This document shows, piece by piece, positions 39,673 to 57,045 of a stretch of DNA of 64,000 nucleotides. Location of the stretch: the NCBI RefSeq assembly GCF_032854445.1, contig NC_088295.1, positions 17,407,385 to 17,471,384 on the forward strand. The letters are read 5' to 3'. The notes under the pieces are model-generated. The model saw only the letters and a program-made list of their open reading frames with translations, made no database searches and was not told where the DNA came from. The position numbers and the translations under genes are program-made. Every line of letters starts with the position of its first letter. Positions within the stretch are counted from its first letter, which is position 1. The stretch is from Liolophura sinensis (taxonomy: Eukaryota > Mollusca > Polyplacophora > Chitonida > Chitonidae).

Positions 39673-40586
39673 ATTGTAGTGATTGCGTGGCTCATACTCT
39701 TCAGATACTTGCTGAATGAGTACTCCTAAAGAGGGGCATCTCTAATAATGGGGGCTGTCTCATTGAATGGTTTTGTATGTGCCGCTTGCATGACCTTTTC
39801 AAGGTACAGAGAGACCCAAGATATCGACACGTTATAGAGGTATACTGTACAGCAATGCAAATTTTATCATCTAGGAAAGACAAATTTACAAGGAAGACAG
39901 CTGGTGTGAACTGTTCAGAACCATCACAACATCTCGACAGTTCTTCAATTTACTATTACAATCCGGTCTTTCAAAGAACTGAAAGCACAGTGCACAATGA
40001 AGTTGTAAGCCCACAGGGAGATCTCCAACAAGAACAAACCTGTTGTCAAAACTTTGCAGGATCCATTAAGAGATTTGTGCTCATGAAACAAAAAAATATG
40101 GGAAGGAAACGCTCCACTGGACAAATTTTTTCTTTGGGCTTGTGCAAGAATCCAATTATTTATCTTTTACCTGATTTTCCACGGTATTGTTAGCCTGGTT
40201 TCTGACGGCATTATGCAGCTTTACCCGTCCATTTTATGTGATGTTAGGCTTACAATCTGCCGTTCTTCTATCTCTCAGCGGTCTGGCTGGACTTTTGGGG
40301 CGTGTGATAATGGACTGTTTGGGGGATTAAATTCGCAAACTTTACAAGGTGGTCTTAATAGGGCAGGCTGTGCTTGGCTTCGCCGTAATCCTCAATCAAT
40401 TTGCGAAAGCATTTTGGACTCTTGGATTATATACGCCTTGACCATTGGCCTTGTTTAAGGCATTCCTTACAGTTACAGAATGGCACTGATGAGGGATTTT
40501 TTTTGGCGTTGAGCATATGGAAAAGATGGTTGCATTCACCATCTTTGCGTCAGGAATAGGAATGGCTGGCGGTAACCCACTCATCG
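39673..40586 (+). pseudogene. SLC16 pseudogene, large central exon (TM5-TM11)
   Basis: Frame changes several times. FRYLLNEYS, stop 39,727, RGASLIMGAVSLNGFVCAAC is TM5/6. The central loop (39,880-40,160) is open as one frame and ends SLGLCKNPIIYLL. TM7/8 follow with VMLGLQSAVLLSLSGLAG, then LLGRVIMDCLGD and a TAA at 40,328. IRKLYKVVLIGQAVLGFAV and further text shift by two bases near 40,430. The rest shifts again at T8 (40,497-40,504) and then reads GVEHMEKMVAFTIFASGIGM to NPLI. The exon ends ATC G|GTGAGTAC in phase 1. Confidence 0.82.
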
Positions 40587-43500
40587 GTGAGTACTGTCTG
40601 TGTCAGGAATGAGGACAATGCGCAGTGGTCCATCTATAAGTGAGTACTCTCTGTGTCAGGAATGAGAAAAATGGCCAGTGGTTCACCCATCGGTGAGCAC
40701 TATCTGTGTCAGGCATGGGGACAGTGGGCAGTGGTTAGTATTGTATGGGTGAGTACTGTCCGTATCAAGAACGGAACAAGTTGGCGGTAGTCCACTCGTC
40801 GGTGAGTACTGCCTGTATCAAGAACGGGACAACTGGGAGGTAGTCCACTCATCAGTGAGCACTATCTGTGTCAGGAAAGGGGACAGTGCGCAGTGGTCCA
40901 TCCATCGCTGAGTACTCTCTGTGCCAGGAATAGGGACAGTGGGCAGTGGTGAGTATTGCATGGGTGAGTACTGTCCGTATCAAGAACGGAACAAGTGGGC
41001 GGTAGTCCACTCATCGGTGAGTACTACCTGTGTCAGGAATGGGAACACTGAGCGGTGGTGTACTTCTCCGTGAGTATTGTTTGATCAGGGATGGGAACAA
41101 CTCATCGCTGAGTACTGTCTGTGTCAGGAATGGGACAGTGGGCATTGGTTCATTCATCGGTGAGTACTTTCTGTGTCTGGAATGAGGGACAATCGGCAGT
41201 GGTTCACTCATCGGTGAGTACTATATGTGTCAGGAATGGGGACGGGGCTGAGGGCAGAGGTCCATTCATCGGTGAGTACTACTGTGTCACGGTGAATACT
41301 ACCTGTGTCAAGAATGGGGACAGCGGACATCGCTCCACGCATCGGTGAATACTACCTGTGTTAGGAATGGTGAATACTACCTGTGTCAGGAATGGTGACA
41401 GTGGACATTGGCCCACTCATCGATGAGTGCTACCTGTGTCAGGAATGGCGGCAGTTGACATCGGTCCACTCATCGGTGAGTACTACCTGTGTCAGGAATG
41501 GGGACAGTGAACATTGGTCCGCTCATTGGTGAATACTACCTGTGACAGGACTGGCGAAAGTGGACATTGGTCCGCTCATCGGTGAGTACTACCTGTGTCA
41601 GGAATAGTGACAAGATACATTGGTCCACTCATCGGTGAGTACTACCTGTTTCAGGAATGGGGGGAGTGGACATTGGTCTACTCATCGGTGAGGACTACCT
41701 GTGTCAGGAATAGTGACAGTGGACATCCGTCAACTCATCGGTGAGTACTACCTGTGTCCAGAATGGCGACAGTGGACACCGGTCCACTCATCGGTGAGTA
41801 GTACCTGGGTCAGGAATGGCGACAGTGGACATTGGTCCACTCAACGGTGAATACTACCTCTGTCAGGAATGGGGACAGTGGACATTTGTCCACTCATCGG
41901 TGAGTACTACCTGCGTCAGGAATGGCGACAGTTGACATCGGTCCACTCACCGGTGAGTACTACCTGTGTCAGGAATGGCAACAGTGGACATGGGTCCACT
42001 CATCGGTGAGTACTACCTGTGTCAGGAATGGGGACAGTGAACATTCGTCCACTCATCGGTGAGTACTACTTATGTCAGGAATGGCGACAGTGGACATCAG
42101 TCCACTCATCGGTGAGTACTACCTGTGTCAGGAATGGGGACAGGTGGACATTGGCCCACTCATCGGTGAATACTACCTGTGACAGGACTGGCGACAGTTG
42201 ACATCGGTCCACTCATTGGTGAGTACTACCTGTGTCAGGAATGGGGAGAGTGGACATTGGTCAGCTCATTGGTGGGTACTACCTGTGTCAGGAATAGCAA
42301 CAGTGGACATTTGTCCACTCATCGGTGAGTAGTACCTGTGTCAGGAATGGGGAGAGTGGACATCGGCCTACTCATCGGTGAGTACTACCTGTGTCAGGAA
42401 TAGCGACAGTGGACATCGGTCCACTCATCGGTGAGTACTACCTGTGACAGGGATGGCGACAGTGGACATCGGTCCACTCAGCGGTGAGTAGTACCTGTGG
42501 CACGAATGGGGACAGTGGACATCGGTCCACTCATCGGTGAATACTACCTGTGTCAGGAATGGCGACAGTGGGCATTGGTCCACTCAATGGTGAGTACTAC
42601 CTGTGTCAGGAATGGGGTCAGTGGACATAAGTCCACTCATCGGTGAGTACTACCTGCGTCAGTAATGGGGACAGTGAACATTCGTCCATTTATCGGTAAG
42701 TACTACCTGTGTCAGGAATGGCGACAGTTGACATCGGTCCACTCATCGGTGAGTACTACCTGGGTCAGGAATGGGGACAGTGGACATTGGTCCAATCATC
42801 GGTGAATACTACCTGTGACAGGACTGGCGACGGTGGACATTGGTCCACTCATCGGTGAGTTCTACCTGTGTCAAGAATGGGGAGAGTGGACATTGGTCCG
42901 CTCACTGGTGAGTACTACCTGTGTCAGGAATAGCGACAGTGGACATGGGTCCACTCATCGGAGAGTACTACCTGTGACAGGGATGGCGACAGTGGACATT
43001 TGTCCACTCAGCGGTGAGTAGTACTTGTGTCAAGAATGGGGACAGCGGACACCGGTACACTCATCGGTGAATACTACCTGTGTCAGGAATGGCGACAGTG
43101 GACATTCGTCCACTCATCGGTGAGTACTACCTGTGTCAGGAATGGGGACAGAGAACATTCGTCCACTCATCGGAGAGTACTACCTGTGTCAGGAATGGCG
43201 ACAGTTGACATCGATCCACTCATCGGTGAGTACTACCTGGGTCAGGAATGGCGACAGTTGACATCGGTCCACTCATCGGTGAGTACTACCTGGGTCAGGA
43301 ATGGGGACAGTGGACATTGGTCCAATCATCGGTGAATACTACCTGTGACAGGACTGGCGACGGTGGACATTGGTCCACTCATCGGTGAGTTCTACCTGTG
43401 TCAAGAATGGGGAGAGTGGACATTGGTCCGCTCACTGGTGAGTACTACCTGTGTCAGGAATAGCGACAGTGGACATGGGTCCACTCATCGGGGAGTACTA

Positions 43501-43870
43501 CCTGTGACAGGGATGGCGACAGTGGACATTTGTCCACTCAGCGGTGAGTAGTACTTGTGTCAAGAATGGGGACAGCGGACACCGGTACACTCATCGGTGA
43601 ATACTACCTGTGTCAGGAATGGCGACAGTGGACATTCGTCCACTCATCGGTGAGTACTACCTGTGTCAGGAATGGGGACAGAGAACATTCGTCCACTCAT
43701 CGGAGAGTACTACCTGTGTCAGGAATGGCGACAGTTGACATCGATCCACTCATCGGTGAGTACTACCTGTGTCAGGAATGGGGACAGTGGACATCGGCCC
43801 ACTCATCAGTGAGTACTACCTGTGTCAGGAATGGGGACAGTGGACATTGGTCCATTCATCGGTGAGTAGT
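40577..43870 (+). repeat. 53-bp minisatellite carrying a splice donor in every unit
   Basis: About 62 tandem units, tcatcggtgagtactacctg followed by tgtcaggaatggcgacagtg and gacatcggtccac. The first unit overlaps the last 10 bases of the SLC16 exon and its donor (CCACTCATCG|GTGAGTAC), so the array appears to have grown from the exon/intron junction. Most units keep GTGAGT; some have GTGAAT or GAGAGT. The first ~12 units (to ~41,340) are more divergent and vary in length. Because 53 is not a multiple of three, frames rotate, and the short open frames here are by-products. Confidence 0.95.
42701..43779 (+). repeat. Recent 530-bp (ten-unit) duplication inside the minisatellite
   Basis: Positions from 42,701 match those 530 bp downstream up to about 43,779 with only one or two substitutions, for example A/G at 42,962 against 43,492. 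Neighbouring 53-bp units differ far more from each other. It is therefore a higher-order repeat formed by one recent unequal exchange, or an assembly duplication. Confidence 0.92.
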
Positions 43871-44283
43871 GGTTTTCACGGTGGGCATAAAGTGCTTATA
43901 TACACGTAGATTTAATTGATTACTGTGTAATGTATCCTCATTAGGAATATTAATAATCCGCTGTCAGCTTCCAAGAGAATCCAGTTTGCCTTTCTGGATA
44001 AGTACATTCCCTATGTTATACAAATGATAACAAAATCCATTGAGACACATGTTTAGTAGAATATTACTAAAATTTCAAAGTGAACATGTCACATAACTCC
44101 TAGTCACGTGCCACTTCACGTGAGTCAAGTAAAAATTAATTCACCTAAAATAAATATGACCTGAATGGGTGTGCACGCGTCGGAGCGCTGAGACAAGTCT
44201 ATTTTTTTCTAAATGTCTCTAGAACGCATCATACCTTAACCTGACTTTGCGATATCTTCCACATATTTCTTATCATGTTCTAG

Positions 44284-44435
44284 GTTGGCTTCGCGATTTC
44301 ACGGGGGGATATCTTGTCCCAATGTACGCCATCGGCTCTTTCTGTTTCCTCAACTGTGTGATCATAATTGCCATGGTATTTCGCAAACCGCTGAGTCGAC
44401 GGTCACGGAGAACATATTACATGAAAACAACCTAA
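44284..44435 (+). pseudogene. SLC16 pseudogene, intact last exon (TM12)
   Basis: Follows the acceptor ttatcatgttctag|. With the G left over from the previous exon it reads GWLRDFTGGYLVPMYAIGSF, then a hydrophobic TM12 and a basic tail ending RRTYYMKTT and TAA. G-W-L-x-D-x-T-G-x-Y is the usual start of the last MCT exon. This exon has no defect, in contrast to the rest of the gene. Confidence 0.88.
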
Positions 44436-44869
44436 CAGCCAATCTACAGTTTGCTTATCTACTCCAATGGTGCTTTGGGCTATACTAGGGACTGCTTTAG
44501 TGAGCTCGAAGCGTTCAGTATAGAGGCTAAAGGGCCGACGAGACACAATGAAGAAGGCAGCCAAGTACAGTCCTGTGAAAACGTTATCGTATTTCTCCCG
44601 CATCATGTGATAACACTTCACCGCCGCGAAACCTGAAGACAACCAGTGTTGAAAAAGTGGGATTCCAAGATGAGTTGTTCGAGGAACCCCACAGACAGGC
44701 AAGAGTTTGACGATACACCAACTGTTGGAAGTGCGATATGAAAATGGATTAAAACTTAGGACGGATGAAGCCTGAGAAAGAAACAGAGGATGTGACAATC
44801 ATTTGACATGGAACGCGTGATTTGAAAAAGGCTAACTGTGACGTGCGGTTTCAAATAAGGGATATTAAA

Positions 44870-48924: not shown

Positions 48925-49135
48925 GTAACGGACGATTACGTCTTTCCCGTTAATATGTACAGATCTCATGCTACAAGAGGCGCCATCTATGATGTTACAC
49001 ATGACATACAAGATAGACGGTTACACTGGGCAACCAGCGCCATCTATGTTTTTAAATACCATGTGCGTGATAGATATGTACATAGGGAGAACATCGCCGT
49101 CTTTGTGGATGATCACAATGCAGATCGTCAGAGAT
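48925..49135. repeat. 57-bp tandem array, 3-4 diverged units
   Basis: cgccatctat recurs at 48,981 and 49,038, and in changed form (cgccgtcttt) at 49,095. The unit of 57 bp equals 19 codons, so a 107-aa plus-strand frame runs through with a 19-residue repeat (AIYDVTHDIQDR / AIYVFKYHVRDR). I regard the frame as repeat-driven, though a low-copy coding repeat cannot be excluded. Confidence 0.7.
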
Positions 49136-49803
49136 TCTGAACGCTCTGTCCATACCTCCCAACGAGAGTGTTATACTCATTGTAAAATTTGAGAAACTTA
49201 GAATGAAGGCGTTTGATGGAGTATCCTTGACAAACTAGTTTTTGAACTAGCAACTTGTGACGCAGATTAAAGTCATCACAATTAACGCAAGATCTGACAA
49301 ATGCTACAAGGCGAGATATGTATACGCCATATACAGGACCCTTTGGTATACTGCTATCTAAATAAGGATAATTTACAATATCAAAATTGAAATTATCCCT
49401 TTTGTCGCATAGGTGGCGTGAAAGGAGATCTTTGTACAGATATAGATCCAAATAAGATGTACCATCAGGACTATCTGTTGTCTCCTTTAAATCCAATGAA
49501 GGCGGACAGATTTCATTCACCGCTTCAGCAATATGGAGATTATTTAACGCCAGTAGATCATCAATATACCGCTTGGTAAATGAAAAGGATCGAGCTTTAA
49601 AGATATTGCTTTTAAGTAATTTCTGCATATAGTCGTATTCATATGAAAACAGGTATAGGTCTGCCAAAAGAGGCGCACAATTGGTACCCATTGGAATACC
49701 TATGCACTGTTGGTAAATGGTATCTCCGAATTTCACATAGATGTTATTAATCAGAAATTCAAGTAATTCAATAAATAACGTCCCATGAGTGGTAACCTTT
49801 ATA
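49128..49803 (-). mobile_element. 5'-truncated reverse transcriptase, probably Penelope-like
   Basis: The open frame extends to 50,081 (317 aa), but only about residues 94-317 look like RT. Seen: GIPMGTNCAP at 128-137 (motif B type), YIDD at 172-175 (catalytic motif C), SYLDLYL (motif E-like) and a C-terminal thumb-like part. That part contains CDKRDNFNFDIVNYPYLDSS, GVYISRLVAFVR and QGYSIKRLHSKFLKFY. This GIPMGTNCAP..YIDD arrangement is typical of RTs related to Penelope-like elements in invertebrates. Motif A and everything upstream are missing, as is any GIY-YIG endonuclease, so the copy cannot act alone. The first ~90 residues are chance frame across a GT/G-rich microsatellite. Confidence 0.82.
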
Positions 49804-49985
49804 AAGAGTAGAACTAAAGAAAACCTTATTGCTTCTGACGTTAATGTAACGGTAACAAAACCTTTTGTCCTTTTAAAACCACACTCACACGTTGATCCTC
49901 TGGTTTGGATTACAGGAGTGACAATGTAAGCCATACTCACACACTGATCCTCAGGCTCGGACCATGTTAACCACCTCGGAGACGA

Positions 49986-50014
49986 CCCCCCCCCCCCCAC
50001 ACACACACACACAC
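49986..50014. repeat. C13 run plus (AC)n microsatellite
   Basis: Thirteen C run directly into eight AC dinucleotides. Confidence 0.95.
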
Positions 50015-50638
50015 GTACTCCCCTAACATCATACTGGGTCATTTCAAAGGATGTTAAACTGTGTAATACTGATATGACCATGACCTGCGGTGGCCGAATG
50101 TTTACCGCTCCAACCTAGTGAGCTGCAAACCCGTGTTCAATGCTGAGTTGGATTTTGGGTCGTTTCAAAAGATTTTAAGCTGATCGATATCGGTATGCCC
50201 TTCACCCGCGACGGCCGAAAGCTTACAGCTCATACCTAGCAAGCTGCAAACCCGTGTCCAATGCTGAGTTGGATTTTGGGTTGTTCCAAAAGGTTTTAAG
50301 CGGATCGATATCTGTATGTCCCTGACCTGCGATTGCCGAACGCTTACAGCTCTCATCTAGCAAGCTGGAAACCCATGTTCAAGGCTGGGTTGGATTCTGG
50401 GTAGTTTCAAAACATGTTAAATTGAGCGTTATTGGTATGTACCTAACCTTCGGTGGTCGAATGTTTAACGCTCCCGCCTAGTAAGCTGGAAACCCATGTT
50501 CAAGGCTGGGTTGAATTCTAGGTCATTTCAAGACATTTTAAACCGGTCGATATTGGCATGTCCCTTACCTACTGTGGCCAAATGTTTACTACTCCCATCA
50601 AGTAAGCTGGAAACCCGTGTTCAAGGATGAGCTGGAGT

Positions 50639-54214: not shown

Positions 54215-54655
54215 GAGAGCCGATTGCAACTGTTTCCACCAAATAAATTCTTTCCTTATACCCTCTGGGCAGTTGTAGATAACGATTATTTCCCCGGCAT
54301 AAATCTGTGCTATTTCTGTATACCTTTTGACAGTTGTACATTACAACTATTTCCACCAAACAGAGGATTTTTCTGCATACCTTCTGGGCAGCTGTAGATT
54401 ACGACTACTTTCACCAAATAAACTCATGATCATTCTGCATACCTTCTGGGCAGCTGTAGATTACGACTACTTTCACCAAATAAACTCATGATCATTCTGC
54501 ATACCTTCTGGGCAGCTGTAGATTACGACTACTTTCACCAAATAAACTCATGATCATTCTGCATACCTTCTGGGCAGCTGTAGATTACGACTACTTTCAC
54601 CAAATAAACTCATGATCATTCTGTTTACATTCTGGGCAGTTGTAGATCATCTACA
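54215..54655. repeat. 62-bp tandem array
   Basis: aactcatgatcattctgcat then accttctgggcagctgtaga and ttacgactactttcacc repeats at 54,421, 54,483, 54,545 and 54,607 (62 bp). Three or four older, diverged units precede it from about 54,215. The last copies are almost identical. Confidence 0.92.
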
Positions 54656-55016: not shown

Positions 55017-55823
55017 TTAGTTTATCTTCTTTTCTTTAACCTCTTTAGATTTCAAATACGCCTTGTGGAAAAAGTGTGCAAATAAAAGGAAGTAGGTAAA
55101 GTACATAATGGACGACCATACTATGTTTGAATATGTCTGTTGACAGAATCCCCCGTGTTTCTTAACTGAGTACGTCCACACATTGATCGTAACCCCAACC
55201 ACCATCTGCAAAATCTGTGTGCAGGTGATTCCTATCTTCAGGGCCACGGGGATGCGGATGCGGAGGGCGGCCAGTGTATAGTACAGATACACGAAAGAGT
55301 GGGCAATGAAGTTCATACAAATAAACCATCGTCCAGCGGCTGTGTAGTTGGCGTAGCTGAACCAGACGTAGATGAGCACGGTGGCGTGATGATACCAGTG
55401 GAGAAATATCAGAGGTTGTTTGCGTAATACAATGAAGACCGTGTCTCCCAACTCCACTACTTTGGATAACGCAAACAGGGCGGCCCAAGTACTGGCTACT
55501 GGGAAGTTCACGTGGGTGAAATCTATAACACATATGGAATATTCGAAATTGTTTGTTTTCAATACATGGAACATTTCAGGTAAGGAACGCAAAGTACCGA
55601 TTATACTAAAGGTTGCCAAGGCCCCGTTCCAAATGACTCGCGCGACTCGGAGATTGAAGGCAGGGCGGTCACGCATGAGGCGACGCCCGGTGAAAATCAC
55701 TGCGATGTACACAACCGTCAGCAAAATGCTGTCCGTCCATCGCCTCTCGATGTAATTGTGAATGCTTTTCTCACGTGATCCGTTCTCAAAATCGAACACG
55801 ATGGAGTAAGCCCCTGTCGCCAT
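55017..55823 (-). CDS. ELOVL6-like: ELOVL3/6-type very-long-chain fatty-acid elongase (3-ketoacyl-CoA synthase)
   Basis: Complete 268-aa frame; ELOVL family members are about 260-300 aa. Elongases condense malonyl-CoA with acyl-CoA in the ER membrane, the first step of chain elongation. The ELOVL6 branch acts mainly on C12-C16 saturated and monounsaturated acids. Motifs seen: K121-x-x-E124-x-x-D127-T128, the histidine box H142-W-Y-H-H146, M170-N-F-I-A-H-S-F-V-Y-L-Y-Y182, and T200-C-T-Q203-I-L-Q206. Several hydrophobic segments are present, and the lysine-rich end (KEVKEKKIN) resembles ER-retention tails. RKQPLIFLHWYHH and the WSS(I/L)MY segment point to the ELOVL3/6 branch rather than the PUFA elongases. 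No intron interrupts the coding region, although vertebrate ELOVL6 genes have several. The ATG lies 29 nt after a possible acceptor (gctttgcag|). Confidence 0.93.
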   Translation of the reverse strand: MATGAYSIVFDFENGSREKSIHNYIERRWTDSILLTVVYIAVIFTGRRLMRDRPAFNLRVARVIWNGALATFSIIGTLRSLPEMFHVLKTNNFEYSICVIDFTHVNFPVASTWAALFALSKVVELGDTVFIVLRKQPLIFLHWYHHATVLIYVWFSYANYTAAGRWFICMNFIAHSFVYLYYTLAALRIRIPVALKIGITCTQILQMVVGVTINVWTYSVKKHGGFCQQTYSNIVWSSIMYFTYFLLFAHFFHKAYLKSKEVKEKKIN

Positions 55824-57045
55824 GATGATTGCTCAGACTTTTTCCTGCAAAGCTTAGCTGCGTGGCCGGTTAATCCTCTTGGCGAAATCGGCAGTCCCCA
55901 ACAGCGAACAACGCCCTCCTGTAATCAGATATGTGCAAGGTCAGGGCATGTGTACCACATGCAGAGTTACTCTGCTGAACATTTAATGCACTATTAGTTC
56001 ACAACAACTGCCACCCCCACTATGTCTAAAGCCCACAGGGACTACAGATGCATTCAGATCTCAAACGTGTTGAGGAGTTTTCAAAAACGGGGAGGGGGGT
56101 GGAAGCGTGGGGGTGGGGAGACTATTAATGGGCATTTGGCTATAACAGTACATTACAGGCAAGGGCTAGTGGGTCACAAATGTAGCACACTTTTCTCTTA
56201 AAGAGAGACAAAATTGTTATAGTACGTCTACCGTGTCCATGTTGTCTCAGTGGTATCGTCCCCCATAGTGCACATTCCATTTACTGTGCTCTCCACATGT
56301 ATATGCCTCTACATGTTCTTCATCCACTGAGACTGCACAAAGAATGGAGTATTTCAAGTCTCGGTGCTTGAACACGGTTTATCTTTCCTTTACAGAGAAG
56401 ACGTCAGGGGTAAAATAGATAGGCGACTTGTCTCGATAATGAATAATACATGAGAAGGCCAACGGACAACACGGTCATGTAGAGTGGCCAAAATGATTAG
56501 TATGCCTGATTGACCCATAAATAAATTTTAATACATCATCATCATTGTCTTATTAGTCAACAACATACAACGACCGAATGGAAAATGATTAAGTTCAATG
56601 TTGCAACAGAAAAAACTATGTGACGGGATTGTTTTTAACAGAGAAAATATTAGATCACGTACATACGATGTATGTTTACATTTGACACCTCACACCTTAC
56701 ATGCCCGTCTTGGAAAAGGAGACAAAACCAGTTGACTATACACACATATATGCCAAATACTGAAGAGGTGTGTGATTGAAGGGGTTGGTGCTAGAAGATA
56801 TCCGAAATAGCCAGCACAAAACGCCACGTGTTGCATGACGCTAACAACTGTTCCCTTATTTGGTACTGTAATATATATCATTCACGTTCGACGTTTACTT
56901 AACCAGTGGTTTCATCTTCGGGTCATATCCCATGGCCTGCAGATTACATAGTCCAAGTGTTAAATTTAGATAATTCTGTTTGCTTAAGTTTATCGTGACC
57001 TCCGTTGTCTGAGCCAAGCTTGATATAAGTCCGGTCCAGAAAAGG

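Follow-up and report, generated by a model that had tools for sequence, protein, structure and literature searches.

How does a 5' splice donor come to be repeated some 60 times within one intron, and do the extra copies alter the message? The question is raised by a 53-bp minisatellite at 40546-43869 of the 64,000-nucleotide stretch analyzed here (the window; contig NC_088295.1, 17,407,385 to 17,471,384), which starts inside a coding exon and carries the donor of that exon with it. This array is very probably a mirage, that is, a minisatellite seeded at an exon/intron junction and tolerated in the intron as a neutral by-product, and not a splicing device. The term denotes minisatellite-like tandem duplications of exon/intron boundaries in amphioxus, as set out in two papers (PMC3087553, PMC3902484). 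At the locus itself, the following elements make up the array:

40546..40586, + strand: exon portion of the founding unit, 41 nt long by best extension and 38 nt (starting at 40549) when the array is decomposed into units
40587..40592, + strand: authentic 5' splice donor GTGAGT of a phase-1 intron, as placed by frame and paralogue homology
40602..43869 (3' end approximate), + strand: 62 derived 53-nt units, each of 38 nt exon-derived and 15 nt intron-derived sequence (Tandem Repeats Finder [TRF], wrap-around alignment)
42748..43754, + strand: recent duplication of a 10-unit block (42748-43224 versus 43278-43754; 476/477 identical)

An earlier note on this DNA had described a donor minisatellite of about 60 copies, and both TRF and wrap-around alignment bear this out. 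TRF broke the repeat into a row at 40577-41099 and another at 41369-43868, the two main ones, separated by short rows. Wrap-around alignment of 40549-43880 against one unit returned 62 derived units behind the exon/donor copy, besides a remnant of 6 bases, with a spacing of exactly 53 nt in 52 of the 62 steps. Units 10, 14, and 15 are degenerate. Given the near identity of the two 10-unit blocks, the array must have been rearranged recently. Splice signals are kept in many copies, as in mirages: GT is retained in 54/62 derived units and GTGAGT in 40/62, and CAG occurs in 49/62. The units are nevertheless less uniform than had been claimed, since the 17-mer CCACTCATCGGTGAGTA, an exon-end/donor string said to recur in every unit, has just 18 exact occurrences in the array. 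GTGAGT is found 42 times, and the CAG-N33-GTGAGT arrangement is present 30 to 31 times but not in each unit. When the window's own genome (609 Mb, one assembly) was searched with the 53-bp unit, all 11 matches fell at this locus, one candidate region having been scored.

The exon border at which the array begins was located by reading frame and by comparison with related loci, using the following coding segments:

39679..39792, + strand: upstream fragment of the large SLC16-like exon listed next, containing a TAA in frame (E 0.001-0.002 when L006 and L010 were the tblastn queries)
40199..40586, + strand: end of the large coding exon, interrupted by stops and frameshifts, in an SLC16/monocarboxylate-transporter-like gene (E down to 2e-8 in tblastn with exons of paralogues L006, L007, and L010)
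44284..44437 (3' end is the open-frame end and approximate), + strand: next exon, reading GW LRDFTGGYLVPMYAIGSFCF.. (acceptor TTCTAG at 44278-44283)

With 40587-44283 removed as a phase-1 intron, the exon junction reads ..ASGIGMAGGNPLIG/WLRDFTGGYLVPMYAIGSF..; the G that follows ..PLI at 40586 joins GT TGG.. at 44284 in frame, giving ..PLIG/WLRDFTGGY. A search of the genome yielded six weak paralogue loci at 29-35% identity (five on contig 12, the sixth on contig 6), among them L006, for which a PDB search gave monocarboxylate transporter 2 (MCT2) at 6e-16. By eye, five of the six (L006, L007, L008, L010, and L011) carry a GT at the same codon and phase, the exon of L009 is unclear, and the next exon is visible in three of the five (L006, L010, and L011). 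Because paralogues share the donor GT at this codon, the exon border lies, by homology, where the earlier note had put it. TRF detected no array in the available stretch of L006, L010, or L011. L007 (930-1327) and L008 (1790-2152) share a 50-bp array in the same-position intron that is unrelated to the 53-bp array. Compared with its paralogues, the window copy is interrupted by three in-frame stops and two or more frameshifts; one frameshift adjoins eight consecutive T and may reflect an assembly error. At 39679-40503, all three stops are TAA where L006 has tyrosine, a coincidence read as chance given the frameshifts in the same exon. The host gene is probably broken, and we take it to be a pseudogene.

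Sequence comparison and the anatomy of the array indicate that the unit descended from the exon. The array had been thought to overlap the last 10 bases of the exon; it does begin inside the exon and include the donor, but the best ungapped extension of the exon-unit homology spans 41 nt, 30 of them identical, and its upstream edge is sharp, with 4 matches in the 15 bases preceding the 38 nt. The 12 units that remain of the first 13 after omission of the degenerate unit 10 yield a consensus that agrees with the last 38 exon bases at 28 positions, and nine of the 10 mismatches are transitions. In its first 28 positions, outside the final ten exon bases, this consensus matches at 18, a score equalled by 2 of the 121,224 non-array 28-mers of the window. 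As the exon codes for a transporter segment and its intron position is shared with paralogues, the exon came first and gave rise to the array. The seed may have been a tandem duplication that spanned the exon/intron junction, taking in ~41 nt of exon and the opening bases of the intron; the array would then have expanded by slippage or unequal exchange. All extra copies would lie inside the intron, the first copy remaining the true exon end, and the array would survive because a transcript spliced at the first donor is unaltered.

Several other arrays in the genome also start at exon ends. Three AGGTGAGT spaced 30-60 nt apart (GTGAGT triplets) occur at 1,572 places versus 535 for the reversed pattern, and three AGGTAAGT (GTAAGT triplets) at 811 versus 643, a weak excess; these counts are of places, not arrays. 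We examined the 5' edge of 31 donor arrays, taken in order from the first places listed, all on contig 1: every one of the 15 distinct GTGAGT arrays in that listing (within the first 6.95 Mb) and the 16 GTAAGT arrays that came first. Among those listed, 10 of the 31 start at an exon end supported by Pfam or PDB homology (7/15 for GTGAGT and 3/16 for GTAAGT):

GTGAGT array, ankyrin exon (Pfam 1.8e-7)
GTGAGT array, SNF2 exon (Pfam 7.9e-6)
GTGAGT array, HEAT exon (Pfam 5.9e-4, under the curated cut-off)
GTGAGT array, DUF3535 exon (Pfam 6.6e-6, under the curated cut-off by 0.1 bit)
GTGAGT array, fucosidase exon, L036 (Pfam 5.9e-4, under the curated cut-off)
GTGAGT array, Fe-hydrogenase-like exon (Pfam 1.8e-12)
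GTGAGT array, OGDH exon (PDB 3.5e-20; Pfam just 0.02)
GTAAGT array, Branch exon (Pfam 1.5e-6)
GTAAGT array, GH31 exon (Pfam 5.4e-13)
GTAAGT array, RNA polymerase III RPC1 (POLR3A-like) exon (PDB 3e-8; without a Pfam match)

The exon part of the unit measures 12-51 nt at 85-100% identity in nine of these 10 arrays and 3 nt in the fucosidase array, which is for that reason a weak case. We take the Fe-hydrogenase-like exon to be CIAO3, and the SNF2, HEAT, and DUF3535 exons are presumably BTAF1; the latter three would belong to one gene. Some of the host genes are presumably essential. In several further donor arrays, an open frame ends at the first donor without a database match, and no support was obtained for exon candidates L031, L033, L040, and L042 by Pfam search or for L039, L047, L053, and L063 by Pfam and PDB searches. 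The earlier note had also suggested that the array may have caused, or come after, the decay of its host gene; the gene does look broken, yet similar arrays follow exons whose frame stays open as far as the junction. The 3' splice side seems to have junction arrays as well. Acceptor-like TTTTCAGG triplets occur at 433 places versus 132 reversed, and of the 10 acceptor arrays in the contig 1 listing nine were considered, the tenth being a locus that overlaps a donor array; two of the nine end at or just before Pfam-supported exons (fn3, 1.1e-6; tetraspanin, 0.0026, below the cut-off) and one further array ends at an open frame only. The acceptor-repeating arrays that adjoin coding exons are L058, L061, and L063.

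Alternatively, the lineage may amplify splice junctions specifically, by a process tied, for example, to transcription or splicing-factor binding, instead of by random slippage filtered by selection. The excess of donor triplets and of acceptor-like triplets agrees with such a process, as does C1:4178252-4199451 (L021-L029), where three different junction arrays lie at BTAF1-like exon ends within ~20 kb on one strand. On the other hand, the excess seen for GTAAGT is weak, the counts refer to places and not arrays, and selective tolerance at junctions may look alike. Moreover, none of 24 P450 exon loci (of 99 matches) had a junction array in a test that recovered 8/8 known cases, so that few junctions carry such an array, although the arrays are numerous overall; five or more of the 24 loci match nearly the whole family in one open frame and may therefore offer no junction to test. 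We consider a junction-specific process unlikely, although it fares best among the alternatives to a mirage.

It is considerably less probable that the array serves as a device for splicing competition, in which equal donors and open 33-nt pieces would yield alternative or extra in-frame exons. The dozens of near-equal donors foreseen by the earlier note are there: the authentic donor is predicted to pair with U1 at -10.8 kcal/mol, and 31 of the 62 copies pair equally well or better, eight of them clearly better. All 33 of the CAG-N33-GTRAG pieces are open in exon phase, and the authors of one amphioxus paper propose mirages as raw material for new introns (PMC3087553). Open frames are expected, however, from descent from one coding exon, which accounts for the 33/33. 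The further idea of a microexon with its own acceptor finds no backing in the units, whose acceptor-like CAG consists of exon codons inherited with the unit and is preceded by a weak pyrimidine tract (mean fraction 0.49, maximum 0.69, versus 0.75 at the authentic acceptor). As had been anticipated, the other donors would spoil the reading frame: a stop codon in the first added unit precedes every one of the 54 downstream copies that have a usable GT, and the exon at 44284 is joined in frame from the first donor alone. The donor hexamer shows no special conservation across units 16-61, where its level is reached by 14 of 48 six-column windows (its own counted among the 14); this is expected without selection, and nothing calls for selection on the donor copies. 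Amphioxus mirages reportedly leave regular splicing undisturbed (PMC3087553, PMC3902484). The host gene here looks broken, so that the question of splicing may be moot at this locus.

Least credible is an origin elsewhere followed by insertion beside the exon with a chance match to its end, because, although beyond its final 10 bases the exon has diverged from the unit (15 to 18 matches in 28, according to the consensus used), the unit was found solely at its own locus in a genome search with one candidate region scored, the match is colinear across the exon and the start of the intron, and exon copies are near-perfect in most other such arrays. Returning to the mirage, several observations weigh against it. 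A typed overall consensus of the units gives 16/28 outside the final ten exon bases, and at least 16/28 was reached in 69 of 20,000 dinucleotide shuffles and by 44 of the 121,224 window 28-mers; the distal consensus gives 15/28, with 130 of the 121,224 as good. Similarity to the exon does not clearly fall with distance along the array: the mean is 38.3 of 53 for units near the exon and 37.9 for distal ones. The window's own transporter peptide, alone, weakly matches a bacterial lactate transporter (E 0.038), with MCT10 at 0.87. First-donor use is a prediction from the DNA sequence. Among the donor arrays examined, 21 of the 31 had no tie to a supported exon, two of them (L041 and L052) because the edge was not reached, and the GTGAGT-triplet excess is not by itself explained by a neutral origin.

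The wider interest lies in the other such arrays at housekeeping-gene exons of the same genome. It is conceivable, though doubtful, that in what is probably a molluscan lineage, and independently of amphioxus, a genome-wide process makes donor- and acceptor-side junctions into minisatellites in working genes. Such a process would be a standing source of surplus splice sites for new introns and of in-frame exon repeats. A genome with several mirages at housekeeping exons would make their formation, the tolerated surplus of donors, the success of the first donor, and the birth of introns measurable.

Elsewhere in the window, a simple donor-pattern check of eight other arrays found no clear junction array among them. 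One of the window's arrays, at 54371-54647, is a young 62-bp array (4.5 copies, 98% matches), to which the same check gave no exon-end tie. On the minus strand, an open frame at 49128-50114 overlaps the start of a 121-bp array at 50034-50636 and presumably carries a reverse-transcriptase-like motif, and another at 55017-55832 resembles, in our assessment, a fatty-acid elongase. The mitochondrial contig of the assembly carries cox1 (Pfam); this frame and the two that flank it are open under code 5, an open frame being no proof of the code, and we take the frame before cox1 to be nad2 and that after it to be cox2. The order nad2-cox1-cox2 is one that occurs in gastropods, which makes the animal probably a gastropod. 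A GFP-family search meant to probe for amphioxus, mirages having been described from cephalochordates, matched nothing, and it gave no match in the control genomes either. In C99, the mitochondrial genome is present in several head-to-tail copies ~15.5 kb apart, likely the assembly of a circle.

The earlier note knew of no described case of a junction amplified in this way, whereas two systems are on record. One is the amphioxus mirage, which is reported from Adh3, troponin C, and the globins BflGb6/BflGb9, with similar repeats in PGBD5 and with varying length (PMC3087553, PMC3902484). The other is a human interferon-induced transcript in which, by the title of the report, a minisatellite supplies multiple splice donors (Turri 1995). 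Our full-text search of the open-licence literature found no report of mirages in molluscs and met the name just for a few amphioxus genes; in the part of a Conus intron paper available, simple repeats are the sole repeats mentioned. Like the amphioxus mirages, the 53-bp array spans an exon/intron boundary, placed here by homology and frame. Unlike them, it has 62 copies, compared with 6 and 3 units in the two BflGb6 haplotypes, lies in probably another phylum, and follows an exon of a gene that looks broken, with splicing deduced from the sequence. With the human transcript it shares donors multiplied by a minisatellite. There, the unit is said to be 12 bp, to overlap the exon end, and to have its first few donors used, whereas the array here has a 53-nt unit and is known from DNA alone. 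Finally, PMC3087553 ties mirages to intron gain by tandem duplication of AGGT-bearing exon segments; in both settings the duplication carries splice signals, but the array here is known without a new intron. The kind is thus already known, and the 53-bp array is a large member of it, probably in a new lineage and probably in a dead gene; what is new is its scale and place, together with the other arrays in the same genome.
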